NCBI GenBank assembly: GCA_016795375.1 | Contig: JAEUHJ010000167.1 | Span: 1 to 64,000 of the forward strand | Direction: 5' to 3' | Origin: Verrucomicrobiaceae bacterium | Lineage (GTDB): Bacteria > Verrucomicrobiota > Verrucomicrobiia > Verrucomicrobiales > Verrucomicrobiaceae | Length of the DNA: 64,000 bases | Shown: piece by piece, positions 5,918 through 58,152 of the stretch | How positions within the stretch are numbered: position 1 is the stretch's first letter | Layout of the letters: each line of letters begins with the position of its first letter | Made by a program: the position numbers and the translations under genes | The notes under the pieces: model-generated | What the model saw: the letters and a program-made list of their open reading frames with translations, nothing else | The model's database searches: none | Told to the model about the DNA's origin: nothing

Positions 5918-6954
5918 GTGAATCCGATGCTCCAACGCCGCATCGTCGTCGTCCGCGCTACTCGGGCAAAAATCCGCGTCGTTTCGAGGACAAATACAAG
6001 GAGCTGAATCCCGAACGCCATGCCGAGACCATCGCGAAAGTGCGGGCGTCCGGCAAAACGCCCGCCGGGCAGCATGTGCCGATCCTTTTGCCTGAAATCA
6101 TGCAGATCCTCGCCCCGCAGCCCGGTGAACGCGCCGTGGATTGCACGCTCGGCTACGGTGGCCATGCCAGCGCGTTGCTGAAGGCCGTGCAACCGGGAGG
6201 AACACTGCTCGCGCTCGATCAAGACCCCATCGAGATCGTGCGCACCGAGGCGCGGCTGCGTGTCGGCGGATGCGAGGAGTCCGCGCTCGTCGTGAAACGC
6301 ATGAACTTCGCCGGTTTGCCGCGTGCGCTGGCCGAACTCGGCTGGAATGATGGCGTGGACGTGCTGCTGGCCGATCTGGGCTGCTCCTCGATGCAGTTCG
6401 ACAATCCCGCCCGCGGTTTCAGCTTCAAGCACGACGGTCCGCTCGACATGCGCATGAACCCGCAACGCGGCGCCTCCGCCCGCGATCTGCTGCAAAAGCT
6501 CTCCGCCGCGAAGCTGAAGACGATCCTCGAAGAAAACGCCGACGAACGTCACGCCGCCTTGCTCGCCGACGCTCTCGCCGGAACCGATCACGCCACCACC
6601 CGCTCGCTGGCCGAGGCCGTGCGCCATGCGCTTCCTCATCGTGTCGATGACGAAGAACGCGAAGCCACCGTGCGCCGTGTGTTCCAGGCCCTGCGCATCG
6701 CCGTGAACGAGGAATTCACCGCGCTCGACACCTTCCTGCACCAACTGCCGGACTGCCTGCGCTCAGGCGGTCGCGTCGCCATTTTGACCTTCCATTCCGG
6801 CGAGGACCGCCGCGTGAAGCATCTCTTCCGCGATGGTTTGAGAGGCGGAATCTTCACTTCCACCAACGACGAGGTCATCCGACCGTCACCTCAAGAAACA
6901 CGCGACAACCCACGCGCGGCACCAGCGAAATTGAGATGGGCGGTGAAGGCGTGA
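5914..6954 (+). CDS. rsmH: 16S rRNA (cytosine-1402-N4)-methyltransferase-like protein RsmH
   Basis: 346 residues from a GTG that overlaps the preceding stop codon. Residues 1-50 are a basic extension. HVPILLPEIM opens the methyltransferase, followed by the SAM motif DCTLGYGGHA, then LLADLGCSSMQFDNPARGFSF, GPLDMRMNPQ and FQALRIAVNEEF, all RsmH/MraW signatures. The usual FHSLEDR is FHSGEDR here, and LGCSSMQF replaces the commoner LGVSSxQL, so it is a divergent member. RsmH normally sits in the division/cell-wall cluster with mraZ and ftsI; here it is alone with a MazG-like gene. It may be a second copy or the sole relocated one. Confidence 0.85.
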   Translation: MSESDAPTPHRRRPRYSGKNPRRFEDKYKELNPERHAETIAKVRASGKTPAGQHVPILLPEIMQILAPQPGERAVDCTLGYGGHASALLKAVQPGGTLLALDQDPIEIVRTEARLRVGGCEESALVVKRMNFAGLPRALAELGWNDGVDVLLADLGCSSMQFDNPARGFSFKHDGPLDMRMNPQRGASARDLLQKLSAAKLKTILEENADERHAALLADALAGTDHATTRSLAEAVRHALPHRVDDEEREATVRRVFQALRIAVNEEFTALDTFLHQLPDCLRSGGRVAILTFHSGEDRRVKHLFRDGLRGGIFTSTNDEVIRPSPQETRDNPRAAPAKLRWAVKA

Positions 6955-6964
6955 TTCGCGAGGG

Positions 6965-7641
6965 TTAGGTTTCAGAGAGAAGGGAGCGGAGAGATGCGGC
7001 AATCGCTGCAAGATGCCAAAATGCAGCACCAAAAATCATGCCAATCCCCGCTCCAAAGCCGAGCGACGACATCCAGTCTCGGGCTTCATTGAAGGTGACA
7101 CCTGCGCGTTCATAGATCGCAACGTCGCTACTGTCCTCGACTCTGCGTTGATATTCGGCCAGATGTTCGAGCAGCGTCTTGTAAGCTGCTTCCAGACGAT
7201 CTCGCTCCGCTGGCTCCATGGTCTTGCTGCTTGCGGCACGTTTTTCCTCGAACTCATCGAACAACCGCTTGAAGAACTTCGACTGGCTCTGGCCTCGGAT
7301 GGCCTGTCGAAATGCAATGAACTCGTCCAGCAGCGCATTCAGATATGTTCGGACATAGATGCCATCGATTCCTGACGCGACGACATTGAAGATCGCGCTT
7401 CCTTTGGATTGCGCCGCAATGATCCGCACTTCGGATTCAGCAAGTTCCGGATTCAGGGCACGAACACGTTCACTGGCGCGGCGTTGGAACTCAGGAGACT
7501 CGAATGGGCGGCGGATTTGTCCATGCGGAACTGTATTGTCATGATTCCGTCAAAAAGCTTGTTCCGTGGCAAGGTCAATTTGCCGTTGATTTTGGAGAAA
7601 ATAGTGAGGCATTCGATTCCTGGGGCGGCAGAAAACGACAT
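6965..7641 (-). pseudogene. Probable frameshifted hypothetical protein with C-terminal membrane helix
   Basis: The downstream frame has its first usual start (GTG) at 7429 and ends at 6965. It is rich in charged helix (residues about 20-105) and ends with a hydrophobic helix WMSSLGFGAGIGMIFGAAF. Upstream of that GTG the same frame stays open for another 40 or so codons of protein-like sequence (RRPFESPEFQRRASERVRAL), back to a TGA near 7551. A second frame, open from 7641 or earlier, reads convincingly up to LPRNKLFDG and then turns into low-quality sequence. Joining the two by a one-base change near 7545-7549 gives one continuous protein of about 225 residues. No family recognised. It could also be two short overlapping ORFs. 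Confidence 0.45.
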
Positions 7642-7675
7642 TGAACCAGACGAATCCACGAGATAGCCTCCCAGC

Positions 7676-7897
7676 ATGATCGCCGAAACCATTCCGCAAC
7701 TGCGCACGATGGGCACTCAAGAGAAGTTTCAACTCGCCGCCGAGCTGTGGGAGGATGTGCTTCAGCATGAGGATCAAATTGACGACCCGCCTGGCATTGT
7801 GGCTCTTCTGGAGCAGCGGCTTGCCAGCTATCGGGCAGGTGAAGTGAGCGGCAAGTCTTGGGAAGAAGTGCGTGCTGCCATTCAGAGCCGTAAATGA
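7676..7897 (+). CDS. Addiction-module antitoxin (RelB/Phd-like component)
   Basis: 73 residues. The sequence (MGTQEKFQLAAELWEDV near the start, SYRAGEVSGKSWEEVRAAI near the end) matches the short acidic addiction-module component family, whose C-terminal helix wraps the toxin. It lies directly upstream of a RelE/ParE-fold gene with one base between the antitoxin stop and the toxin GTG, the classic antitoxin-first TA order. Such antitoxins usually repress their own promoter with the toxin as corepressor; no clear operator was identified. Its start lies on top of the possible start region of the minus-strand gene described at 6965-7641. Confidence 0.85.
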   Translation: MIAETIPQLRTMGTQEKFQLAAELWEDVLQHEDQIDDPPGIVALLEQRLASYRAGEVSGKSWEEVRAAIQSRK

Positions 7898-7898
7898 A

Positions 7899-8210
7899 GT
7901 GAATGCTCCGATTATCATCCTCGCGGGTGCCGAATCGGACATCCAGCGCATCTACAACCGTCTCACTGACTATCGCGACGGTGCGGGGGATGAGTTCATG
8001 GACCGTCTGGGAGGTGTGGTTCACCAACTGGAGGCTTTTCCAGAGTCCTCGCCGCTGCGGATGCTCGGTTTTCGCCGCGCTCTGGTGCCAGGTCACGTTT
8101 ACGGCGTTTTTTATCAAATCGAATCCCGGGGCGTCGTGGTTCATGCGGTCGCGGATCTGCGCCAGGATCCATCGTGGCTGGAACGGACGTTGAAGGAGCG
8201 ACTGGAGTAG
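7899..8210 (+). CDS. RelE/ParE-family toxin
   Basis: 103 residues from the GTG at 7899. The open frame extends upstream inside the antitoxin, but this GTG is the only usual start beyond its stop. The core pattern AESDIQRIYNRLTDY, LGGVVHQLEAFPESSPLRM, FRRALVPGHVYGVFYQIE and VHAVADLRQDP is the ParE/RelE plasmid-stabilisation toxin fold: two N-terminal helices, then a beta-sheet with a C-terminal basic strand. RelE members cleave ribosome-bound mRNA and ParE members poison gyrase; which applies is not readable here. It is paired with the antitoxin at 7676. Confidence 0.85.
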   Translation: MNAPIIILAGAESDIQRIYNRLTDYRDGAGDEFMDRLGGVVHQLEAFPESSPLRMLGFRRALVPGHVYGVFYQIESRGVVVHAVADLRQDPSWLERTLKERLE

Positions 8211-16285: not shown

Positions 16286-18757
16286 ATGAAACGCTTCATC
16301 TTCCTCACCTTCGCCGCAGGCGCATTCGCCGCCGAGCCTGATGCCGCCGGGCTGCATGCCTGGTATCGTGCCGGGAGTTTGAAGGCCGATGGCATGCGCG
16401 TGACCGCGTGGGAAAATGCCGCCGCTTCCGGTGATGTGCGCTCGCTCACGCGTATCGTCGGCCAGCCGCATGCTTTCCGCGTGAAATCCGCGAGCGGCGA
16501 TCAAACGGTCCTCCGGCTCGATGGCAAGGCCGCGCTGTGGCAGGCCGTGGGCGGCTGGGGCACACTCGATGGGGGGCGCACAGTTCTCGCAGTTCTTCGC
16601 CTCGCACCCGGCGCGGAGGGATTCCTTTTTGATGGCTCGACCAAGAGCGGTCGATCCCATGCGCAGGTGAAAAACGGTGCCTGGCAGGTCGGGTTCGGCA
16701 CGAACGAAGTCTTGTCCACGCACGACGCCAGGACAGGCACCTGGCAGATTCACGCCTTCATGTTCACCCAGACCGCCGCTGGCACGGACATCGTGCATAC
16801 GATTGCAGGGGCGGGGTCGAAGTCCGTCCACGCGAGCGCCGCGCAGCCGCTCGGTGGATTCATCATCGGCGCGGACGCCTCGACGAAGAACGGCCTCGAA
16901 TGCGACATCGCCGAAGTCATCGTCCACGACCGTGCCCTCGCCGGTGCCGGGTTGAACGCCGCCGTGAGCGATCTGCAAAGTCGCTGGGGTCAGCCGTCCG
17001 ATGCGCCTGAGGCCGAGCAGCCGCAGGCAGCCATCATCCCCGCCGACCCGCGCATCTTCCGCACCGTCGTGCGCGCACCGGGCGACGATGGGGTGAAAAG
17101 CTACCGCATCCCCGGCCTCGCCACTTCCACGAAAGGCACGCTGCTCGCCGTCTTCGACATCCGTCACAAACACTCCGGCGACCTGCCAGCGGACATCGAC
17201 GTCGGCCTCATGCGTTCCACCGACGATGGCAAGACCTGGGGCAAGATGCAGGCCATCATGGACTTCGACGCCAGCGAGCCCGGTTCGCGCGGCAACGGCG
17301 TCGGCGACCCCGCCATTCTCGTGGATCAAGAGACCGGTGCGATTTTTGTCGTCGCCCTCTGGAGCAAAGGCGCGCGTGGCTGGGGCGGCAGCGGTCCCGG
17401 CATGACGCCGGATGAAACCGGCCAGCTCGTCCTCGTGAAAAGCACCGATGACGGCGTGACGTGGAGCAAGCCCGGGAGCATCACGCCGCAGGTCAAAGAC
17501 CCCGCGTGGCGGCTCTGTTTCAACGGCCCCGGCTGCGGCATCCAGCTCCGGGACGGCACGCTCGTCTTCGCTGCGCAGTTCAAAGGCGCGGACAACGTGC
17601 CGCACTCGTGCTTCATCGCCAGCGGCGACCATGGCGGGACGTGGAAGATTTCGCCTGCGGCCATCCCCGCCCGCCCGCCGACGAGCGAGGCGCAAATCGC
17701 CGAACTCGCCGACGGCTCGTTGCTCCTCTCCATGCGTGATGAATCCCGCTCCGGCAAACGCGCCTGGGCGCGGTGGAACAATGGTAAATGGAGCGAGCCC
17801 TGGTCCGCCGTCACCGATCCGACGTGCATGGCCAGCCTCATCCGTCATCCCCACGGCGAACTCATTTCCTCCAATCCCAACAACACCTCCCGTCGTGACA
17901 ACCTCACCCTTCGCTCCAGCAGCGACGGCGGCAGGACATGGAGCGCCGGCCGCGTGCTCGATCCCGGACCGGCGATGTATTCCTGCATGACCGTGTTGCG
18001 CGACGGCAGCATCGGCATCCTTTATGAAAGCGGCCCCGAGTGCAGCCTCACCTTCGCCCGTTTCCCGATCGAGTGGGTGCTGGAAGGCGCCACCTCTCCC
18101 GCCGTCCCCGAAGGCCGTCTCGAGACCACCGGCAAATTCGCCTGGTGGATGAAACGGCACGAGCAAAAACTCGCCGAAGTCAAAGCCGGCGCCGATGCCG
18201 AAGTCGTTTTCATCGGCGACTCCATCACCCAGGGCTGGGAAGCCGCCGGGAAGGAGCTGTGGCACCGCGGCTACGCCCCCCGCCGTGCCTTGAACCTCGG
18301 CTTCGGTGGCGACAGCACTCACCACGTCCTCTGGCGGCTCGACCACGGCGAATTCGACGGCCTCAAGCCCAAAGTCTGCGTCCTGCACATCGGCACCAAT
18401 AACGTCCGCCACAGCGACTCCACCCCGCAGCAGATCACGGAAGGCATCCGCGCCATCATCGACCGCATCGCCAATAAATCCCCCGGCACAAGAATCATCC
18501 TCCACGCCATCTTCCCGCGCGGTGCGGACGCCACCGATCCCTGGCGCCAGCGCAGCCAGCAGGTCAACGCCCTGCTCCCCGCCCTCGCCGACGGCCGGCG
18601 CGTCCACTTCCTCGACATCGGCAGCGCCTTCACCGGCCCCGGCGGCGCCGTGAGCAAAGAAGTCATGCCCGACCTCCTCCACCTCAGTCCCAAAGGCTAC
18701 GCCCTCTGGGCCACAGCCCTCGAACCCAAGCTCCGCGAGTTGCTCGCCGCGCCTTGA
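16286..18757 (+). CDS. Trimodular LamG-sialidase-SGNH esterase
   Basis: 823 residues, secreted (MKRFIFLTFAAGAFAAE). Residues about 20-235 are a concanavalin/LamG-like domain. A GH33 sialidase covers about 250-605 with a YRIP motif near 272 and Asp-boxes STDDGKTW, STDDGVTW, SGDHGGTW and SSDGGRTW. From about residue 630 it is an SGNH/GDSL hydrolase: nucleophile Ser646 in GDSITQGW, GGDSTHH, HIGTNN, and Asp796 and His799 in DLLHLSPKGY. The combination suggests removal of O-acetyl groups that block sialidases, followed by sialic acid release, in one polypeptide. The last 50 codons are repeated almost exactly at 23963-24116. An RM island starts immediately after it. Confidence 0.85.
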   Translation: MKRFIFLTFAAGAFAAEPDAAGLHAWYRAGSLKADGMRVTAWENAAASGDVRSLTRIVGQPHAFRVKSASGDQTVLRLDGKAALWQAVGGWGTLDGGRTVLAVLRLAPGAEGFLFDGSTKSGRSHAQVKNGAWQVGFGTNEVLSTHDARTGTWQIHAFMFTQTAAGTDIVHTIAGAGSKSVHASAAQPLGGFIIGADASTKNGLECDIAEVIVHDRALAGAGLNAAVSDLQSRWGQPSDAPEAEQPQAAIIPADPRIFRTVVRAPGDDGVKSYRIPGLATSTKGTLLAVFDIRHKHSGDLPADIDVGLMRSTDDGKTWGKMQAIMDFDASEPGSRGNGVGDPAILVDQETGAIFVVALWSKGARGWGGSGPGMTPDETGQLVLVKSTDDGVTWSKPGSITPQVKDPAWRLCFNGPGCGIQLRDGTLVFAAQFKGADNVPHSCFIASGDHGGTWKISPAAIPARPPTSEAQIAELADGSLLLSMRDESRSGKRAWARWNNGKWSEPWSAVTDPTCMASLIRHPHGELISSNPNNTSRRDNLTLRSSSDGGRTWSAGRVLDPGPAMYSCMTVLRDGSIGILYESGPECSLTFARFPIEWVLEGATSPAVPEGRLETTGKFAWWMKRHEQKLAEVKAGADAEVVFIGDSITQGWEAAGKELWHRGYAPRRALNLGFGGDSTHHVLWRLDHGEFDGLKPKVCVLHIGTNNVRHSDSTPQQITEGIRAIIDRIANKSPGTRIILHAIFPRGADATDPWRQRSQQVNALLPALADGRRVHFLDIGSAFTGPGGAVSKEVMPDLLHLSPKGYALWATALEPKLRELLAAP
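18604..18757 (+). repeat. Direct repeat, copy 1 (3-prime end of sialidase-esterase gene)
   Basis: 150 bases (18604-18753) match 23963-24112 with a single difference (G at 18624, A in the other copy). After one further mismatch, TGA is shared. The offset is 5,359 bases. This copy is the natural C-terminus of the SGNH domain. It marks the left boundary of the hsdM-hepT-hsdS-fic-hsdR island. Confidence 0.95.
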
Positions 18758-18872
18758 TCGATGATGCGATGGGTGCCGAGGCGGTGATCCAGGATCGCCC
18801 GTTGATTCCCCCCCCGCGGGCGAAAGGAAAGTTGCCACGGCATTTCCATGTCCCATCGTGGACGCTTCCCGC

Positions 18873-20345
18873 ATGTTCGAACAAACCTTCAAAAACATCG
18901 ACGACGTCCTCTGGAAGGACGCCGGCTGCACCAGCGAGCTGGATTACTCCGAGCAGTCCTCATGGCTGCTGTTCCTGAAATACCTCGACAGCCTGGAGCA
19001 GGACAAAGCCGCCGTCGCCGTGCTGGAAGGCAGGAAACACACGCCCATCCTCGCCCCGGAGTTCCGCTGGTCCGCCTGGGCCGCGCCCAAGGATCCGAGC
19101 GGCGCGATCGACCACAACCGGGCCCTCACCGGCGAAGACCTGCGCGACTTCGTGAACGGGAAACTTTTCCCCTACCTGCACGGATTCAAACAGCGCGCCA
19201 CCAGGCCGGATACCATCGAATACAAGATCGGGGAAATTTTCGGCGAGATCCGCAACAAGATCCAAAGCGGCTACAACCTGCGCGACATCATCGACCATGT
19301 GGACGAACTGCGGTTTGGGACGCAGAAGGAAAAGCACGAGCTGTCCCACCTCTACGAGGCCAAGATCAGGAACATGGGCAACGCCGGGCGCAACGGCGGC
19401 GAATACTACACGCCGCGCCCGCTCATCCGCGCCATCATCCGCGTCGTCGCGCCCCGCATCGGCGAGACCATCTACGACGGCGCCTGCGGCTCCGCCGGGT
19501 TCTTGTGCGAGTCGTATGATTATCTGACCCAGGCGACCAAATTGGCGACGAAGGATTTGGCGACCCTCCAAACCAAAACCTTTTACGGCAAGGAGAAGAA
19601 GTCCCTCGCCTACGTCATCGGCGTGATGAACCTCATCCTCCACGGCATCGAAGCACCCAACCTCGTCCACACCAACACCCTCGCGGAGAACCTCGCCGAC
19701 ATTCAGGAAAAGGACCGCCACCACATCGTGCTGGCCAATCCGCCCTTCGGCGGCAAGGAGCGCCCGGAGGTGCAGCAGAACTTCCCCATCCGCACCGGCG
19801 AGACGGCCTTCCTCTTCCTCCAGCACTTCATCAAGACCCTCAAGGCCGGCGGCCGCGCCGGCGTGGTCATCAAGAACACCTTCCTTTCCAACACCGACAA
19901 CGCCTCCGTCAGCCTCAGAAAACACCTGCTGGAAAGCTGCAACCTCCACACCGTGCTCGACTGCCCCGGCGGCACCTTCCAGGGCGCGGGCGTGAAGACC
20001 GTGGTCCTGTTCTTTGAAAAAGGCGCGCCCACCCGCCGCGTCTGGTTCTACCAGCTCGACCCCGGCCGCAACCTCGGCAAAATCAACCCGCTCAACGACG
20101 CGGACCTCGCGGACTTCATTGAGAAACAGAAGACCTTCGCCGACTCCGACCGGAGCTGGAGCGTGGAGGCCAGGGACATCGACCCGGCGACCTGGGACCT
20201 CTCCGTGAAAAACCCCAACGGCGGCGAGGAAGTGCAGCACCGCAGCCCCGAACAAATCATTGCGGAAATGCAGCAGCTCGACACCGAAGCCCAGGCTTCT
20301 TTACAAAAAATCAAAGCCCTCCTGGGTTCACGATTCACCGACTAA
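18873..20345 (+). CDS. hsdM: Type I restriction-modification methyltransferase subunit HsdM
   Basis: 490 residues from the ATG at 18873 (a GTG at 18858 is in frame). The N-terminal helical HsdM domain runs to about residue 120 (FEQTFKNIDDVLWKDAG). The SAM-binding region follows GGEYYTPRPLI and reads DGACGSAGF where DPxCGSGGF is usual. The target-adenine motif NPPF is near residue 289, within NPPFGGKERP. A C-terminal helical segment binds HsdS. It methylates adenine N6 as M2S. It is the first gene of the island and lies 6 bases upstream of the HEPN gene. The 100 bases before it contain no clear promoter. Confidence 0.9.
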   Translation: MFEQTFKNIDDVLWKDAGCTSELDYSEQSSWLLFLKYLDSLEQDKAAVAVLEGRKHTPILAPEFRWSAWAAPKDPSGAIDHNRALTGEDLRDFVNGKLFPYLHGFKQRATRPDTIEYKIGEIFGEIRNKIQSGYNLRDIIDHVDELRFGTQKEKHELSHLYEAKIRNMGNAGRNGGEYYTPRPLIRAIIRVVAPRIGETIYDGACGSAGFLCESYDYLTQATKLATKDLATLQTKTFYGKEKKSLAYVIGVMNLILHGIEAPNLVHTNTLAENLADIQEKDRHHIVLANPPFGGKERPEVQQNFPIRTGETAFLFLQHFIKTLKAGGRAGVVIKNTFLSNTDNASVSLRKHLLESCNLHTVLDCPGGTFQGAGVKTVVLFFEKGAPTRRVWFYQLDPGRNLGKINPLNDADLADFIEKQKTFADSDRSWSVEARDIDPATWDLSVKNPNGGEEVQHRSPEQIIAEMQQLDTEAQASLQKIKALLGSRFTD

Positions 20346-20351
20346 GCACTC

Positions 20352-20768
20352 ATGAATGCCCCGCAAGACATCCGCTGGAAACAGCGATTTCAAAACTTCA
20401 CCAAAGCACTTGTCCGCCTAAGTGACGCCGTCGAGTTGGCGACGGAGCGGGAACTGACCGACCTGGAGCAACAAGGGCTGATCCAGGCTTTTGAGTTCAC
20501 GCATGAACTGGCTTGGAACACGCTCAAGGATTACCTGATCTATCAGGGTGCTGATCCCTCCATCGTCGGCAGTCGCGATGCCACCCGATTGGCCTTCCAG
20601 AATCAACTGATCGGCAACAGCGAGGCATGGATGGAGATGATCAAGAGTCGCAACCAGACCTCCCATACCTACAACCAGGAAACTGCCGATGAGATTGTCG
20701 CCCTCATCATTGCTTCCTATTATCCCGAGTTCGAGCAACTGCGCGTCCTGCTCACAGGCAAACTCTGA
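20352..20768 (+). CDS. hepT: HepT-like HEPN toxin / nucleotidyltransferase substrate-binding protein
   Basis: 138 residues, all-helical, of the HI0074 (nucleotidyltransferase substrate-binding) type. The HEPN ribonuclease motif R-x4-H-x-Y is complete: Arg100, His105 and Tyr107 in SRNQTSHTYN. In studied HepT/MntA pairs HepT is an RNase toxin and MntA silences it by adding AMP to the Tyr of this motif. The conserved GSRDATRLAFQNQLI segment is also present. It lies 6 bases after hsdM and 2 bases before the MntA-HsdS fusion gene, so it is an internal cistron of the RM operon. Confidence 0.85.
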   Translation: MNAPQDIRWKQRFQNFTKALVRLSDAVELATERELTDLEQQGLIQAFEFTHELAWNTLKDYLIYQGADPSIVGSRDATRLAFQNQLIGNSEAWMEMIKSRNQTSHTYNQETADEIVALIIASYYPEFEQLRVLLTGKL

Positions 20769-20770
20769 CC

Positions 20771-22297
20771 ATGCCCTACGGCCTTCCCAGCGAAAGCATC
20801 GAACAGATCCGCGCGGTCTTTGCCCGCCATCCGGAGCTGAAGCAGGCCATTCTCTACGGCTCCCGCGCCATGGGAACCCAGCGCGAGGGATCGGACATCG
20901 ATCTCACGCTCACGGGCAAGGATCTGAACCTCAGAGTCCTTTCCCGCATCGAAACCGAACTCGACGACCTCCTCCTGCCCTACCCATTCGATCTCTCCCT
21001 CCGCCGCCAAATTAAGAACGACTCCCTGCTCAACCACATCGAACGAGTGGGAGTTCTGTTTTACGAGAAGGATAATGGAGACCAAGGGAAACAGCGGGAA
21101 GATGGAATGAAGGAGGGGTGGGAGTGGAAGAAGCTGGGGGAGGTGTTGGCGAAAACTGAAACCACCGACCCGACACGCTCGCCAAACGCTGAGTTCGACT
21201 ACATCGACGTTTCCAGCGTCTCGAATGAAACACTCACGATCCAGGAAACCCAGCGTCTGAAAGGAAAAGACGCGCCGAGCCGAGCGCGACGGCTTGTCAG
21301 AACCAACGACATCCTCTTTGCGACGATTCGCCCGACGCTCCGCAGAATCGCCATCGTGCCCGAAGAACTGGACGAGCAGGTTTGCAGCACGGGTTACTTT
21401 GTTCTTCGCGCTACACCCGCGGTGGATGCCCGCTTCGTCTTCTACTTTCTCCAAACCGGAGACTTCATGGCTGCAATGGAGAAGCTGCAGAAGGGCGCGA
21501 GCTATCCTGCTGTTACAGACGGCGACGTCCGCTCGCAGCCGTTCCCCCTCCCCCCGCTGGCCGAGCAGCGGCGGATCGTGGGGGTGCTGGACGAAGCGTT
21601 TGCCGGGCTGGCGCGCGCCAAAGCCAACGCCGAACAGAACCTCCAAAACGCCCGCGCCCTCTTCGCCAGCCACCTCCAAGCCGTCTTCTCCCAACGCGGA
21701 AACGGGTGGGTGGAGAGGACGCTGGGGGAGCTATGCACGGCTGTGGAGTATGGGTCTTCCTCGAAATCCAAGAAGGAAGGAAGGTTGCCCGTGCTGCGAA
21801 TGGGGAATATTCAAGACGGCAGGCTTGATTGGGGAAATCTCGTTTATTCTGACAACGAAGCGGAAAACGAAAGATACCAGCTCAAGCATAATGACGTTTT
21901 GTTCAATCGGACAAACAGCCCTGAGCTGGTTGGGAAAACCGCAATCTACAAAGGCGAACGGCCCGCAATCTTTGCCGGCTACCTCATTCGTATTCACCGA
22001 AAGGAAGACCTGCTCGACGCGGACTACTTGAACTACTTTCTAAACAGCCGCATTGCCTTCGACTACGGGAAGACGGTTGTGATTTCGAGCGTCAACCAAG
22101 CAAACATTAACGGCGCGAAGCTGAAAACGTATCCGATTCCGACTCCTCCGCTCCCCGAACAACGCCGCATCGCCACTCAACTCGACGCGCTCTCCGCCGA
22201 GACGCAGCGGCTGGCGGGGGTGTATGCGCGGCAGTCGGCGGCACTGGCGGAGTTGAAGCAGGCCCTGCTGCACCGGGCCTTCGCCGGGGCGCTGTGA
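20771..22297 (+). CDS. hsdS: MntA nucleotidyltransferase fused to type I specificity subunit HsdS
   Basis: 508 residues in one open frame. Residues 1-100 are a minimal nucleotidyltransferase of the MNT group: GSRAMG at 30-35, DxD at 42-44 (the GSx10DxD motif) and a third Asp at 74. A purine-rich linker covers about residues 100-113. From there it is HsdS: first target-recognition domain about 115-260, conserved helix about 268-310 (PPLAEQRRIVGVLDEAF), second target domain about 315-465, second helix to the end (PPLPEQRRIATQLDAL). No stop separates the two parts. An internal ATG at 21107 with a purine-rich upstream stretch could also start HsdS alone. The second target domain is visibly more AT-rich than its surroundings, as often seen with exchanged HsdS domains. 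Confidence 0.85.
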   Translation: MPYGLPSESIEQIRAVFARHPELKQAILYGSRAMGTQREGSDIDLTLTGKDLNLRVLSRIETELDDLLLPYPFDLSLRRQIKNDSLLNHIERVGVLFYEKDNGDQGKQREDGMKEGWEWKKLGEVLAKTETTDPTRSPNAEFDYIDVSSVSNETLTIQETQRLKGKDAPSRARRLVRTNDILFATIRPTLRRIAIVPEELDEQVCSTGYFVLRATPAVDARFVFYFLQTGDFMAAMEKLQKGASYPAVTDGDVRSQPFPLPPLAEQRRIVGVLDEAFAGLARAKANAEQNLQNARALFASHLQAVFSQRGNGWVERTLGELCTAVEYGSSSKSKKEGRLPVLRMGNIQDGRLDWGNLVYSDNEAENERYQLKHNDVLFNRTNSPELVGKTAIYKGERPAIFAGYLIRIHRKEDLLDADYLNYFLNSRIAFDYGKTVVISSVNQANINGAKLKTYPIPTPPLPEQRRIATQLDALSAETQRLAGVYARQSAALAELKQALLHRAFAGAL

Positions 22298-22482: not shown

Positions 22483-23559
22483 ATGAACACGCTGCGTCCA
22501 TTGCCGCTTCAGGATCCAACCTCGCTGGAAACTCGCGAGGTCTGGGCCGCGCTCACCGAAGCGCACCGGCATTTGGCGGAGCTGAAGGGCTTGTGTGCCT
22601 CGCTGCCGAATCAGGGCATCCTGCTGGACACACTGGGCATCCAGGAGGCGAAGGACAGCTCGGAGATCGAGAACATCATCACCACGCACGACCAGATCTT
22701 CGCCTCTCAGTCTGATGCGGCGGTGACTCCCGCCGCGAAGGAGGTGCGGCACTATGTGTCCGCCCTGCGCACGGGCTACGAAGCCGTCCGGGATTCGCGC
22801 CTGATCCGGCTGGAGACGGTGCTGGCCGTGCAGGCGGAACTGGAGCAAAACCGTGCGGGCTTGCGCAGGCTACCGGGCACAGTCTTGAAGAATGAAGCGA
22901 CAGGAAAGGTGGTCTATGAGCCGCCGCAGGATGCCGCCGCGGTGGAGCGATTGATGGGAAACCTCATCGACTTCATCCACGCAGACGACGGTCTGGATCC
23001 TCTGCTGCGCATGGCCATCGCGCATCATCAGTTCGAGAGCATTCACCCTTTCTATGACGGCAATGGCCGCACGGGGCGCATCCTCAATTTGTTGATGATG
23101 CAGCGCGACGGCCTGCTGGATGTGCCGGTGCTTTATCTCAGCCGCTACATCACGACGACGAAGGCGGACTACTACCGTCTGCTGCAAACGGTGCGTGATG
23201 AGGATCGCTGGGCGGAATGGTGCCTCTACATTCTGCGGGGCGTGGCACTGACCTCGCGCAGTGCGATCTCATCGGTGACAGCCTTGCGTGAACTGATGCT
23301 GAAGACCAAGCACGACATGCGGGACAAGCTGCCGAAGCTCTACAGCCAGGATCTGCTGAACAACCTCTTCCGTTACCCCTACACGAAGATTGAGTTCGTC
23401 GAGCGCGAACTTTCCGTGTCGCGCATCACGGCGGCAAAGTATCTGGATCAACTGACCGCGGCGGGCTTCGTGACGAAGCGCAAGGTCGGCAGGACGAACT
23501 TCTACATCAACGCGCCGCTCTTTGCGCTGTTGAGCAACGTGACCCTCGACACACCATGA
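22483..23559 (+). CDS. Fic-family AMP-transferase-like protein in RM island
   Basis: 358 residues. An N-terminal Fic/DOC helix region has the inhibitory motif S-x-x-x-E-N at Ser59-Asn64 (SSEIEN). The catalytic motif HPFYDGNGRTGR at residues 188-199 is canonical and complete. The C-terminus (about 270-358) is a winged-helix domain (FVERELSVSRITAAKYLDQLTAAGFV). This matches class II Fic proteins, which AMPylate proteins when the inhibitory Glu is displaced. Its stop overlaps the ATG of the hsdR remnant by 4 bases (ATGA), so it is translationally coupled to restriction. Fic genes are recurrent neighbours of type I RM operons; their role there is not established. Confidence 0.9.
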   Translation: MNTLRPLPLQDPTSLETREVWAALTEAHRHLAELKGLCASLPNQGILLDTLGIQEAKDSSEIENIITTHDQIFASQSDAAVTPAAKEVRHYVSALRTGYEAVRDSRLIRLETVLAVQAELEQNRAGLRRLPGTVLKNEATGKVVYEPPQDAAAVERLMGNLIDFIHADDGLDPLLRMAIAHHQFESIHPFYDGNGRTGRILNLLMMQRDGLLDVPVLYLSRYITTTKADYYRLLQTVRDEDRWAEWCLYILRGVALTSRSAISSVTALRELMLKTKHDMRDKLPKLYSQDLLNNLFRYPYTKIEFVERELSVSRITAAKYLDQLTAAGFVTKRKVGRTNFYINAPLFALLSNVTLDTP

Positions 23560-24116
23560 ACGAATCCGAAACCCGCGCTGAACTCATTGACCCCGCGCTC
23601 GCCGCCGCAGGCTGGGGCGTGGTTCCGGGCAGCCGCATCCGACGGGAGTTTGTCATCGCGCCGGGGCGCATCGAAGGGAAAGGCAAGCGCGGGAAGGTGC
23701 TGAAGGCGGATTATCTTCTGGAATACCGGAATACGAAGCTGGCGGTGGTGGAAGCGAAAGCCGTTTCGGAAGCCCACACCGAAGGCGTGGGGCAGGCGAA
23801 GGACTATGCGGGGAAGCTGGCGATCCGCTTCACCTACGCGACGAACGGGAAGGGCATCTACGGCATCGACATGCACACCGGCAAGGAGGGGGATGTGGCG
23901 GCCTATCCTTCCCCCGAGGAGCTGTGGGCGCGCACCTTCTCCGAAGCCAACGCCTGGCGCGACCACTTCCTCGACATCGGCAACGCCTTCACCGGCCCCG
24001 GCGGCGCCGTGAGCAAAGAAGTCATGCCCGACCTCCTCCACCTCAGTCCCAAAGGCTACGCCCTCTGGGCCACAGCCCTCGAACCCAAGCTCCGCGAGTT
24101 GCTCGCCGCGCCATGA
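23556..24116 (+). pseudogene. hsdR: Truncated HsdR nuclease domain fused to SGNH C-terminal tail
   Basis: 186 residues. Residues 1 to about 136 are the N-terminal endonuclease region of a type I R subunit: RAELIDPALAAAGW, then the PD-(D/E)xK residues Asp52 and Glu66-x-Lys68 (VVEAKA), and SPEELWARTFSEANAWRDHF, the segment just before the helicase in intact HsdR. At that point the sequence switches, in frame, to the last 50 residues of the sialidase-SGNH protein and ends at its stop. All helicase and translocase motifs are absent, so it cannot restrict DNA on its own. The junction lies in a short similarity (GGCGCG then CCACTTC), which suggests recombination or a deletion. An assembly join is the alternative. 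Confidence 0.85.
23963..24116 (+). repeat. Direct repeat, copy 2 (right edge of the RM island)
   Basis: Matches 18604-18757 at 149 of 150 bases plus the shared TGA after one mismatch. The exact run common to both copies is 129 bases. It supplies the abnormal C-terminus of the hsdR remnant and marks the right boundary of the island. The final bases GCCATGA create an ATG overlapping the stop. Confidence 0.95.
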
Positions 24117-51553: not shown

Positions 51554-53269
51554 TCAGATTTGTTTCAACCCCAGTAGCAACTCCTGTACTTCGCGGCCCT
51601 TCGTTTCAATGAGGTCGATGAGTTCGGCGGAGCTGCGGGTGTCTTCGGTGCTCTTGGCATTGGGATTGACGGCTTTGAGGTCAAAGGCTGCGTCTTCGAT
51701 GGACTGGGCTTTGGACTCGATCTCGCGGATTTCGCGTTCGCAGGCGGTGATGAGTTTTTTGGCTTCCTCCAGCTTCTCGGTCTTGGCTTTGGTCTTCTTG
51801 AGCTGGTCGAGCTGTTCTTGATGCTTCTTGAGCCGGGCTTTCGGCTCAGCGGCAGTGGCGCGGAGCTTGTCAGCTTCCGTTTTGGCCTGCCGACGGCGGT
51901 CAGCGATGTTGAGAGTCCAGCTTCGGTCGCCGTCAACGCGCGTTGGCAGCAGTTTGAAGAACTCCGCGAGATGCTGGCGGGTGAAGGGTGTCTTCTTCGC
52001 CACCTTCACGCCGCTGAGATCGAAGTACCAAATCTTCTCCGTGGCCCTGCCTTTGGTGAAGAACAGCACGTTCGTTTTCACGCCTGCACCTGTGGCGGTG
52101 AAGACGCCGCCGGGCAGGCTCAGCACGCACCAGAGATCACAGGTGTCGAGCAGGCGGCGCTTGGTTTTGATGAAGGCGTCTTGGTTCGTTTGAAAAAGGA
52201 TGCCCTCTGGCAGCACGATGGCGCAGCGGCCTTCGGGCTTGAGTGTCTCCATCACGTCCTGGAGGAAGAGCACCTCCGTGGCGCGGGATTTGTAGGCGAA
52301 GCGGGTCTGCGCGTCCTCGCCCTCCTTGCCGCCAAAGGGCGGATTGGTCAGGATCACGTCAAACTGCCCCGGCGCGTTCTGGTAGAGGCCGCTGTAGATT
52401 TCCTCGCGCGTCAATGTGTTGCCATGCCAGAGATGCGGCTCGTCGATACCGTGCAGCACCAGATTCGCCAAGGCGATGGGATAGACGAGGTTCTCCTTCT
52501 CCCGGCCGTAAAAGGTCTTGTGCTTCAACGCTTCGATTTGATCGCCCGTGGCGTTTTCACCCAGCGCGCCGCGCATGAACTCATACGCCTGCGCCAGGAA
52601 GCCGCCCGTGCCGCAGCAAGGATCGCACACGGTTTCTCCGACTTTCGGCGCGATCACCTCCACGATGGCGCGGATGACCTCACGCGGGGTGAAGAACTGA
52701 CCGCCGTCATTGCCCTTCTCGCCCATTTTCAGCAGGAGGCCCTCGTAAATCTGGCTCAGGGCAAAGACGTGCGTGTCATCCACCGTGTCGAGGCTGATCT
52801 CGTGAATCTTGTCCAGCACATCGAGCAGGTTCCGCTGGGTATCGACGCGGGTGCGGTCCACGCTGGACATGATCTCGCTCATCACCTTTTGACGCGGCGT
52901 GGCGTTCGGTTTGTCCTTCAGCGCCTTCAGGTGAGGGATGAGCCGCGTGTTCACGAAGTCGTAAAACGCGTTTGTCGTGCTCTCCACCAGCTTCTTGCGC
53001 TCCGGGGCCTCCGGCGCGGCCCAGTCCCGCCAACGAAACGGTGGCAAAAGCGAGGGGCGAAAGTCCGCTCCGACCACCGCCGCGTTTGCCGCCTCGATCT
53101 CCTCCGTTTCGTCCAGGATGCGCAGGAAAAGGATCCACGTCAGCTCCGGCACATACTGCAGCGCCCCCGCGCAGTTCGAGCGCCGCAGGATGTCACACAC
53201 GCTCCAGATCGCGCTGTCCAGCCCGGCGCGGGTGGTCGTTTTGGGCTTTGTCTTTGGTTTGGCTGCCAT
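51554..53269 (-). CDS. hsdM: Type I restriction-modification methyltransferase subunit HsdM (second system)
   Basis: 571 residues. The HsdM N-terminal helical domain runs to about residue 160. GGQFFTPREVIRAIVEVI leads into the SAM motif DPCCGTGGFL (about residue 215), and VILTNPPFGGKEG holds the NPPF catalytic motif (about residue 307). The C-terminal 130 residues are a long charged coiled coil (LKKHQEQLDQLKKTKAKTEKLEEAKK), longer than in the first HsdM. Adenine N6 methylation. It is the last gene of the operon, 2 bases after the DUF1828-type gene. It is only distantly similar to the HsdM at 18873, so the two systems are not recent duplicates. Confidence 0.9.
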   Translation of the reverse strand: MAAKPKTKPKTTTRAGLDSAIWSVCDILRRSNCAGALQYVPELTWILFLRILDETEEIEAANAAVVGADFRPSLLPPFRWRDWAAPEAPERKKLVESTTNAFYDFVNTRLIPHLKALKDKPNATPRQKVMSEIMSSVDRTRVDTQRNLLDVLDKIHEISLDTVDDTHVFALSQIYEGLLLKMGEKGNDGGQFFTPREVIRAIVEVIAPKVGETVCDPCCGTGGFLAQAYEFMRGALGENATGDQIEALKHKTFYGREKENLVYPIALANLVLHGIDEPHLWHGNTLTREEIYSGLYQNAPGQFDVILTNPPFGGKEGEDAQTRFAYKSRATEVLFLQDVMETLKPEGRCAIVLPEGILFQTNQDAFIKTKRRLLDTCDLWCVLSLPGGVFTATGAGVKTNVLFFTKGRATEKIWYFDLSGVKVAKKTPFTRQHLAEFFKLLPTRVDGDRSWTLNIADRRRQAKTEADKLRATAAEPKARLKKHQEQLDQLKKTKAKTEKLEEAKKLITACEREIREIESKAQSIEDAAFDLKAVNPNAKSTEDTRSSAELIDLIETKGREVQELLLGLKQI

Positions 53270-53271
53270 GC

Positions 53272-54060
53272 TTATGCAGCGAGCGAAAGATTCAGCCGGT
53301 CTGTTTCCGCAGGGAAGCTGACAATGTTGGAAACGCTCTCCAGTCGTTTCAGGTCTTCCTCGCGAAACACGTCATTGCTGGAGTCATACACCGTCAGGCA
53401 CTGGTAATCATTTCGCGTGGGTGTGATGTCATACCAGCGGGCAAATGCCTCGTTGCTCAGGGTGTGGGCTGCGAAACGGTTGGCGGTGGAGAGTATCTGC
53501 ACCAGCGAGCGCATGCGCTGTCCTTCAACGAGGAAATCAAACGACACCTCCTTGCCATACTGGCCCGCGATCTTGACTCCAGGCTGGTAGGGACGGTCCA
53601 GCGTGACGATGAACTCCTCAAAGTCCTCCGTGAGCGCCAGCGGTGCGCGCAGCCTTTGTGTGTAGGCCAGGTCGGCCACGCGGATGCAGACCTGCGCCAG
53701 CCGCAGCATCGCATCCGGCAGGTCTTTCATCTCCTCTTTCTTGAGCCGGACACGGAAGGCTCCGCCCTCCTGTTCCACGCCGAGCGTGGCGCAGATGTCC
53801 GCCAGGGTCTGCTTGCGTTTCTGGCTGGTCCAGGGCTTCACATGCAGGTCCAGCAGGTAGGCGGTCGTCTGGCCTTTGTCCGAAAGTTCGAAGCCCTCAA
53901 AAAGATCACCATCCACCTTGAGAAACACATCAATCTGAGAGCCATCCGGGTAGCGGAAGGGCGTCGCCAGACGCAGCGACCCGTCACGCACCTGGTCACA
54001 GGCAGTGATGAGGCAGACATCGGTGATGAGGCTGCGGATGTTGGAGCAGTCAGGCGTCAT
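53272..54060 (-). CDS. DUF1828/DUF1829 protein inside the second RM operon
   Basis: 262 residues. The N-terminal half resembles DUF1828 (TPFRYPDGSQIDVFLKVDG, FELSDKGQTTAYLLDL), a small domain found in phage and mobile-element neighbourhoods. The second half resembles DUF1829 (FDFLVEGQRMRSLVQILS, ARWYDITPTRNDYQCLTVYDSSND). Neither domain has a proven activity; no nuclease or nucleotide-binding motif is evident. The ATG overlaps the stop of the preceding 141-residue gene by 4 bases, and the stop is 2 bases from hsdM, so it is a tightly coupled internal cistron. An anti-phage or RM-modulating role is inference from position only. Confidence 0.75.
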   Translation of the reverse strand: MTPDCSNIRSLITDVCLITACDQVRDGSLRLATPFRYPDGSQIDVFLKVDGDLFEGFELSDKGQTTAYLLDLHVKPWTSQKRKQTLADICATLGVEQEGGAFRVRLKKEEMKDLPDAMLRLAQVCIRVADLAYTQRLRAPLALTEDFEEFIVTLDRPYQPGVKIAGQYGKEVSFDFLVEGQRMRSLVQILSTANRFAAHTLSNEAFARWYDITPTRNDYQCLTVYDSSNDVFREEDLKRLESVSNIVSFPAETDRLNLSLAA

Positions 54061-54482
54061 GGTTCGTTAAACGTGCCGGTGTGCTTGATGTTGGCCTGCT
54101 GGAGCAGAATCTCCCAGACTTCTTTCACCGTGGGCAGGTTTTCCAGGTCCGGGCGGGCCACGGCGGCAGGCAGGTTATTGCGTGGATCGCTGTCCTTGCG
54201 CAGGTCGTGCTTGTGCGTCCGCCCGACAAGCGGGTGGATAGTCCCGTTGACGCACACCCTGCAGATCGGCCCGGTCCCACGCAGCACGAAATTCAAGGTG
54301 ATCGAGGGTATCCCGGGCTTGTAGGTGCCGTTGAGCACCACGTCGTAATTCAGAACATTGTCCACCTTCACATCCTCAAACACCAGATTGGGGCTGGTGG
54401 GCTGCTTCAGTTCAAAAACAATGTCGGAAGTGATCTGCTTGTCGGGCAGGTTCCGCAGGGCTTCAAATTCGGCACGATTCAT
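54057..54482 (-). CDS. Hypothetical protein inside the second RM operon
   Basis: 141 residues, no family recognised. The middle is beta-rich (VFEDVKVDNVLNYDVVLNGTYKPGIPSITLNFVLRG), followed by PICRVCVNGTIH with a C-x-x-C, and HPLVGRTHKHDLRK, with a helical end (VKEVWEILLQQANI). The Cys pair with nearby His residues could bind metal, but the pattern is incomplete. It lies 10 bases after hsdS and overlaps the DUF1828-type gene by 4 bases (ATGA). The two unknown genes together form a module between hsdS and hsdM. A toxin-antitoxin or modulator pair is possible but unproven. Confidence 0.7.
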   Translation of the reverse strand: MNRAEFEALRNLPDKQITSDIVFELKQPTSPNLVFEDVKVDNVLNYDVVLNGTYKPGIPSITLNFVLRGTGPICRVCVNGTIHPLVGRTHKHDLRKDSDPRNNLPAAVARPDLENLPTVKEVWEILLQQANIKHTGTFNEP

Positions 54483-54492
54483 AATGAGGCGA

Positions 54493-55671
54493 TTATAGGC
54501 TCCCGAACGCCTCCCGCAAGAACGCGCCCGGCAGCTTGTCGAGGGCTTCGAGCTGGGTGCCCAGGGCCTTTTGGAGCTGCTGGAGGTGCGTGAACTGTTC
54601 CCGCAACCGCGCGGCGATCTGGCGCTGGGTTTTCAGCGGAGGAATTGGTATGTCCGTGGCGGCGAGTTGGGCACGTCCGATCTTTTTCATCGTGTCGCTG
54701 GCACCGGAGGCACGCTCCTGCCAGTAACCTGTCACAAACAGGTAGGAAAACCAAGCGGCGGCATAGGCAGGCACCACACCATCTCTGGCTCGCAGCCGGA
54801 TGGTGAGATCAGAGGCTACCAACGGCTGCTTGCTGCCTTCAAAGAGCGCGACACGGCCAACCAACGCGGGTGTGTTGCTGCGGGCGATCATAATCTCGCC
54901 AGAAGAGATGCGGGCATCAGCCACATCATCCTCCATCATGAGCGCGTCTTTCACGCCAGACTCGGTGAATCCAGTCTCTTGCAAACAGGCTGTGGTCACA
55001 GCCCTCACCGCCGCTGTGCCTTTCAAATTGATCGAACGGGCGGGAAGGAAATCGCAGGCATCTCCCACACTGCGCACAGGCCATTCGTTTGTCTCGTCCT
55101 CCTGAAAAATCTCCTTCAAAAGCCGTGTCGGGAGACTGGCGGCCGCCTTCGCCTGCTCCTCGACCCGGCGGCGGGTTTCTTCGACGGCGGTCATCTGGGA
55201 TTTCAGGTGCGTGGCGAGGCGGCGCTGGGTGGGGAGGTCGGGAAGCTCGACCGGTTGCGACAAAACCTGCTTGTCGGACACCGCTGGATAGTTTGCGCCT
55301 CGCGCAAGCTCCGTCAGGGCTTCGACAAAAGCAGGTGTTTGAACCGTGTAGAACAAGAAGTCAGCATCCACACATTTTGAAGGCCGCAGAACACAAAAAC
55401 CCGTGCTACAAACGGATTCGTCCAACTCCAATGGGATACATGCCACCGCATTCAGGTTTGGGCGAGTGGTGGCGATGATGACGTCTCCGGCCCGAACGGC
55501 ATTTCGGGCACGGCTTGGAGCATCTGCGCCCAAAAGCGTCTTTGCAGCGACGACTTTTTTACTGCGATTGTCCACCGCCGAGATGTCCACATATCGAAAC
55601 ACTCCATTAGGCTTCCGTGTCGGATCGACAGTTTCGGTTGGAACACAGATTTTACCCAGTGTCGTCCTCAT
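54493..55671 (-). CDS. hsdS: Type I specificity subunit HsdS (second system)
   Basis: 392 residues: first target-recognition domain about 1-150, conserved helix about 152-190 (LPDLPTQRRLATHLKSQM), second target domain about 195-335, second helix to the end (PPLKTQRQIAARLREQFTHLQQL). The start is fixed by the ATGA overlap with hsdR. The first target domain strongly resembles that of the HsdS at 20771: shared DPTR-PN, DAPSRAR, ATxRP, ELDExVCSTG and VLRP/VLRA patterns in the same order. The second target domain is unrelated. It determines the bipartite recognition sequence. Confidence 0.9.
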   Translation of the reverse strand: MRTTLGKICVPTETVDPTRKPNGVFRYVDISAVDNRSKKVVAAKTLLGADAPSRARNAVRAGDVIIATTRPNLNAVACIPLELDESVCSTGFCVLRPSKCVDADFLFYTVQTPAFVEALTELARGANYPAVSDKQVLSQPVELPDLPTQRRLATHLKSQMTAVEETRRRVEEQAKAAASLPTRLLKEIFQEDETNEWPVRSVGDACDFLPARSINLKGTAAVRAVTTACLQETGFTESGVKDALMMEDDVADARISSGEIMIARSNTPALVGRVALFEGSKQPLVASDLTIRLRARDGVVPAYAAAWFSYLFVTGYWQERASGASDTMKKIGRAQLAATDIPIPPLKTQRQIAARLREQFTHLQQLQKALGTQLEALDKLPGAFLREAFGSL

Positions 55672-58094: not shown

Positions 58095-58152
58095 GGGTGT
58101 GACAAGAGATGCTGGAGCCGCTATCTCAAGGCAAGAAAGCATTATTCAACGG

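Follow-up and report, generated by a model that had tools for sequence, protein, structure and literature searches.

Toxin-antitoxin (TA) genes are often found inside restriction-modification (RM) operons, and it is unsettled, except in the case of PrrC/EcoprrI, whether such neighbors are physically coupled or merely share a locus. One gene in the window (the whole 64,000-nucleotide stretch of Verrucomicrobiaceae DNA that was analyzed) raises this question directly: has an antitoxin become part of the HsdS subunit of a type I RM system, and, if it has, does the join couple toxin control to RM? The gene lies in an operon with the order hsdM-hepn-[mnt:hsdS]-fic-hsdR', in which the spacing is operon-like (6 bases between the hsdM and HEPN genes and 2 bases between the HEPN gene and the MNT). 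The features of the operon are as follows.

18858 to 20345, + strand: hsdM, type I methyltransferase gene (PADLOC MTase_I); its product shares 66-82% identity with the HsdM proteins of EcoAI-type loci.
20352 to 20768, + strand: HEPN toxin gene of the HI0074/NTase_sub_bind family; its product retains RX4HXY (RNQTSHTY) as well as the Q/E pair (within GLIQAFE).
20771 to 22297, + strand: MNT-HsdS fusion gene, 508 aa, 57.0 kDa (calculated).
20771 to 21073, + strand: MNT domain (residues 1-101) carrying GSX10DXD as GSRAMGTQREGSDID; among solved structures it is nearest to the L. pneumophila MNT (8xeh/8xeo).
21074 to 21106, + strand: linker of ~11 residues (102-112, NGDQGKQREDG), predicted disordered.
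21107 to 21110, + strand: ATGA, in which an in-frame internal ATG overlaps a +1-frame TGA, arranged as in unfused relatives.
21107 to 22297, + strand: HsdS part, residues 113-508, with two target-recognition domains and the internal repeat GWEWKKLGE / GWVERTLGE.
22483 to 23559, + strand: SoFic-type Fic protein adenylyltransferase gene, a frequent extra gene in these operons.
23556 to 24116, + strand: truncated hsdR, ~130 N-terminal residues of EcoAI-type HsdR running in frame into a copy of a GDSL gene end.

The frame at 20771-22297 (+) runs for 508 codons without a stop. In the predicted protein, Pfam places a Polbeta domain at residues 11-102 (E 2.5e-15) and Methylase_S (PF01420) twice (E 3.9e-30). 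Residues 3-101 align to residues 9-107 of the 108-aa L. pneumophila MNT chain (8xeh, E 3.7e-30), and because this alignment spans nearly all of that chain, the window MNT is a complete domain and not a fragment. The two PF01420 matches, which represent two target-recognition domains with helical conserved regions, together with the hsdM gene upstream, identify the remainder of the protein as an HsdS. The AlphaFold model contains confident modules at residues 1-100 and about 113-508, and its confidence falls below 50 only at residues 104-110, between the modules, and at residues 438-442; the placement of the MNT relative to HsdS in this model is not to be interpreted. The first ~26 residues of the unfused HsdS rows were misplaced in the input alignment, and it is unlikely that the modelled module boundaries depend on those rows. 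Foldseek superposes the MNT module on 8xeo at 0.9 Å with a TM score of 0.96, and the best fold match of the HsdS module is 5ybb_D (TM 0.85 by target). These results bear out the first-pass annotation of this DNA, which had described a nucleotidyltransferase running without a stop into a two-domain HsdS and a product of about 57 kDa.

That annotation had also named the antitoxin MntA, a label that we reject. The window pair scores 42.4 bits against the NCBIfam model for MntA and 19.9 bits against that for HepT (the Shewanella type), below the cut-offs of 60. The HEPN protein, which is 138 aa long, instead scores 108.5 bits against TIGR01987 (cut-off 55.8) and 155 bits against PF08780, and its gene adjoins the MNT, as is characteristic of a pair of the HI0073/HI0074 type. 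Among solved structures this HEPN is closest to the HEPN toxin of L. pneumophila (2.9e-46), and alignment to 8xdj and 8xeh reveals the type VII motifs RNQTSHTY, GLIQAFE and GSRAMGTQREGSDID. Judged by its sequence, the window pair is an HI0074-type HEPN-MNT pair, with the HEPN-MNT toxin-antitoxin of Legionella pneumophila as its nearest relative. In the Legionella system, where the HEPN motif residues and the MNT motif have been tested experimentally, MNT adenylylates the tyrosine of the HEPN RX4HXY motif, the HEPN Q/E pair is reported to be a Mg site, and the parts of MNT that touch HEPN are the alpha2 helix and the alpha2-beta3 loop, with the C-terminus not among them (PMC11586414). Since the C-terminus lies outside this interface, fusion of HsdS to it would not need to block contact with HEPN.

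The downstream end of the operon is damaged. A search of the draft genome (240 contigs, 87% complete) did not turn up the missing part of hsdR, and the window locus lacks the intact HsdR that a functional type I restriction system requires. With hsdR truncated, the window complex could at most methylate; restriction by this locus has probably been lost, and this copy of the operon may be decaying. The first-pass annotation makes no mention of the truncation. The RM island is flanked by a direct repeat (18604-18753 and 23963-24112) whose two copies are ~150 nt long and differ by a single mismatch; a longer ungapped match gives 95% over 179 nt. The repeat is the end of a sialidase/GDSL gene, and its right copy shortens hsdR in frame. 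In form it resembles an att-type site or a recombination scar, in which case either a circular excised form or an empty site would be predicted. Fic-domain genes adjoin HEPN-MNT/RM genes at other loci as well, as SoFic in the window and at loci L053, L061, L076, L078 and L080 and as a RhuM-Fic protein at L301 (8075-9025). The window carries a second type I RM operon at 51554-58142 (-) with full-length hsdM, hsdS and hsdR; two extra genes, DUF1828 (53272-54060) and one without a Pfam match (54057-54482), occupy its hsdM-hsdS interval.

We sampled MNT homologs from whole genomes of several phyla and measured the length of the reading frame for each, which yielded 131 distinct near-complete MNT domains. 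Eight of these have an hsdS within 900 nt downstream, and five of the eight, spread over three phyla, are fused to it in frame: the window, L300 and L301 (from a Bacteroidota-side search), and L302 and L303 (from a Pseudomonadota-side search). Two of the eight overlap hsdS by 4 nt (L078 and L165/L208), and one is separated from it by 406 nt (L235). Seven MNTs have hsdR downstream, and one of the seven is fused to it. In this last case (L127/L207, G321:C517), the MNT is preceded by a HEPN gene and is in frame with a complete EcoR124-like HsdR from residue 121, giving a protein of 1061 aa. For the remaining 116 MNTs, no HsdS or HsdR was found downstream; in the sequence read, they are followed by a Fic or hsdM match at most, and otherwise by no RM gene of those tested. 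No frame in this group continues into a further gene, and the longest of the tails ends at 147 residues. Fusion is thus found in 6/15 MNTs with HsdS or HsdR downstream versus 0/116 of the others (Fisher p 8e-7; 7e-6 without the window), and among the 131 MNTs fusions were observed only with RM subunits. For most MNTs the earlier statement, that such genes are normally separate, is correct, but fusion is common among MNTs that lie directly upstream of hsdS. The completeness of the MNT, the recurrence of the join and the Fisher test lead us to reject a chance open frame.

A sixth MNT-HsdS fusion lies on a finished sequence, plasmid pZMOB01 of Zymomonas mobilis ATCC 10988 (NC_017180.1; L304/P0002). 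Its 527-aa product (WP_014466389.1; Polbeta at 17-105, then Methylase_S) is annotated only as 'restriction endonuclease subunit S', and the MNT domain is unannotated; proteins with just this name can hide an antitoxin. As in the window, the MNT-HsdS gene follows an HI0074-family gene in a compact operon, here hsdM-hepn-[mnt:hsdS]-hsdR. Unlike in the window, the MNT and HsdS are divergent (21% identity to the window protein), hsdR is full-length, and the plasmid sequence is finished. The fusion is accompanied by a full-length hsdR at L301 also. The fused gene is present in full at L300, L301 and L304, and at L302 and L303 it extends past the end of the contig. Every fused locus has an intact HEPN gene of the cognate type immediately upstream, and the HEPN RX4HXY and MNT GSX10DXD motifs are intact in all of them. 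We are highly confident that fusion of MNT to HsdS is a genuine architecture that recurs, and the independent fusions, one of them on a finished plasmid, lead us to reject artefact as an explanation of the whole class.

Several related arrangements were encountered. Acetobacter plasmids have the same gene order in unfused form, with an overlap of 1-8 nt (L323, L324) or a short gap. On one of them, Acetobacter pasteurianus pAPA01-020 (L327), hsdM-HEPN-MNT is intact, but an IS5 transposase gene interrupts hsdS, which is followed by a short 'type I restriction endonuclease'; this natural disruption of hsdS with the TA pair retained would be useful for testing whether the pair depends on HsdS. At L303, hsdM and the HEPN gene are separated by a YhcG/DUF1016 PDDEXK nuclease gene (6933-7976). 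In same-phylum type I operons, a HEPN-MNT cassette directly precedes hsdR (L005, L049, L051, L129 and L155), which suggests that the cassette enters type I operons at different positions. A DNA-level search of 68 family genomes returned no other locus with the window fusion, and many of these genomes share HsdM, Fic or HsdR stretches. The nearest MNTs are about 58% identical to the window MNT, and no close relative of the exact fusion was found. Viral contigs yielded no relatives of the window protein; for the L304/P0002 protein they yielded 15 loci that match from residue 106 or later, outside the MNT domain, and phage records contained one unannotated MNT relative.

The fusions do not descend from a single event. 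The HsdM proteins of L300-L302 are only about 25% identical to the window HsdM and that of L303 is 66% identical, a divergence that places the fusions in different type I families. Five fused rows require five changes on a 62-row MNT tree, and monophyly of the fused MNTs is rejected by the AU test (p 0.009; 0.019 without the long-branched L302). FUS_L301 clusters with two unfused MNTs with support of 99/94. We therefore reject one ancient fusion that was passed around. For the window and L300 alone, a shared origin is compatible with the data (p 0.5), and the exact number of origins is uncertain, given that the tree has only 100 columns and that L302 is a long branch.

The unfused hsdM-hepn-mnt-hsdS relatives mostly overlap by a few bases at the MNT/HsdS boundary, and at L078 and L165 the MNT stop and the HsdS start share an ATGA. 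The first-pass annotation had proposed checking homologs for a stop near codons 100-112; unfused relatives do have one, in the form of this ATGA overlap, and other homologs are fused in frame. In the window, the +1 frame is open back through METKGNSGKME and ends in a stop at 21108-21110. Since the ATGA persists in that frame, the fusion amounts to one net +1 change from separate genes. The unfused MNT of the Gallionellaceae locus L078 has a C-terminal tail whose coding stretch (6300-6330, CCTTCGACAAGCTCAGGGCGAAC) resembles a dispersed REP-type repeat that has invaded the gene end.

A one-base change of this kind could also be a sequencing or assembly indel, the true MNT stop in the window genome overlapping the HsdS start as it does in the relatives. 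The genome is a draft in 240 contigs that is 87% complete. Third-position G+C over the 12 linker codons amounts to 4/12 for the fused frame, compared with 9/12 for the +1 frame with its terminal ATGA. Codon likelihood for the same 12 junction codons slightly favors the +1 frame, by 1.4 log units, which is a weak signal. However, the junction has no long homopolymer, the neighboring genes are intact, and the fusions in other genomes, including one on a finished plasmid, show that the fused state exists. We consider an indel improbable and the window copy very probably truly fused. A stop or frameshift revealed by re-sequencing of 21070-21107 is now a matter that concerns the window genome only and no longer the architecture.

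A genuine fusion might nevertheless be functionless. Overlapping, translationally coupled genes could have been joined by a 1-nt change or by loss of a stop, with HsdS still being produced from the ATG at 21107 or tolerating an N-terminal passenger. The overlaps in unfused relatives of the same gene order (4 nt at L078 and L165/L208; 1-8 nt at L323 and L324), the ATGA that the window retains at 21107 in the +1 frame and the truncation of the window hsdR are what such a history would leave. The ATG at 21107 is codon 113 and opens the usual HsdS N-terminus (MKEGWEWKKLGEV), which is repeated where the second half starts; a start there would give an HsdS of 44.3 kDa (calculated), and free HsdS from this internal ATG is possible. 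An ATG is likewise present at the HsdS start of L300. In contrast, L303 has no in-frame ATG, GTG or TTG near its junction and L304 has no start codon at its HsdS start, so HsdS at these two loci appears to depend on the MNT start. This, the repeated independent fusions restricted to RM subunits, and the MNT and HEPN motifs that are intact in all fused cases argue against a functionless join, which we regard as unlikely.

Overall, we lean toward the fusion functionally coupling toxin control to type I RM. In such a system, the antitoxin half of an HI0074/HI0073-type pair would have become the N-terminal domain of HsdS in a type I RM operon. The fused MNT would AMPylate the HEPN ribonuclease at the RX4HXY tyrosine and thereby keep it silent, and the HsdS part would assemble with HsdM on DNA, so that the antitoxin would sit on the methyltransferase and its supply would be tied one to one to HsdS. 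That the antitoxin is fused and held at the methyltransferase had been proposed in the first-pass annotation, and it is a sound reading of the sequence, since the join is present there and recurs in other genomes and an intact HEPN gene lies directly upstream. If HsdS were lost, displaced or degraded, as upon loss of the plasmid or island or through phage anti-restriction, newly made HEPN would remain unmodified and would attack RNA. In the window genome, only modification and toxin control could remain, hsdR being truncated. A fused MNT might instead have been repurposed to nucleotidylate an RM component, a DNA-bound partner or a phage protein; HsdS would indeed put it beside HsdM and DNA, but the intact, cognate-type HEPN gene immediately upstream in every fused locus makes this highly improbable.

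An extension of the coupling mechanism, which we offer tentatively, is that MNT-HsdS is a convergent guard device in which the RM complex doubles as its own tamper sensor: disabling or removing HsdS would stop AMPylation of HEPN and trigger RNA cleavage. We found no direct test of the coupling of HEPN-MNT to RM in the literature. That antitoxins have become fused to HsdS more than once, and only ever to RM subunits, provides direct evidence from genomes of physical coupling, and the pZMOB01 copy, a complete operon on a finished plasmid, makes the question testable now. The portions of the open-licence literature that were searched contain no published description of an MNT-HsdS or MNT-HsdR protein.

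The closest solved relatives of both window proteins belong to the type VII HEPN-MNT system of Legionella pneumophila (8xdj, 8xeh and 8xeo; PMC11586414). The Legionella and window MNTs are both short and lack the alpha4 helix, and the residues reported to be active or modified in the Legionella pair are kept in the window pair, but the Legionella MNT is a free 108-aa protein, whereas the C-terminus of the window MNT continues into HsdS (PMC11586414). The best precedent for the proposed coupling is PrrC, which is kept inactive by EcoprrI, a type IC RM enzyme, and is released when that enzyme is inhibited (PMC3874165). Like the window operon, the EcoprrI operon includes a HEPN-type ribonuclease, and its RM enzyme is the keeper of the toxin, a likeness to the window locus in logic only (PMC3874165). 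PrrC is an ABC-ATPase-HEPN anticodon nuclease held directly by the RM complex (PMC3874165); the window toxin, in contrast, is a small HI0074-type HEPN of 138 aa without an ATPase, which places the locus outside the PrrC/EcoprrI class, and it is the antitoxin enzyme that is covalently part of HsdS. A survey of HEPN domains describes families that cluster with RM operons, as well as fusions in which a HEPN domain is joined to an RM nuclease or helicase (PMC3710099). In the fusions that it reports it is the toxin HEPN that is joined to the RM protein, whereas in the window it is the antitoxin MNT.
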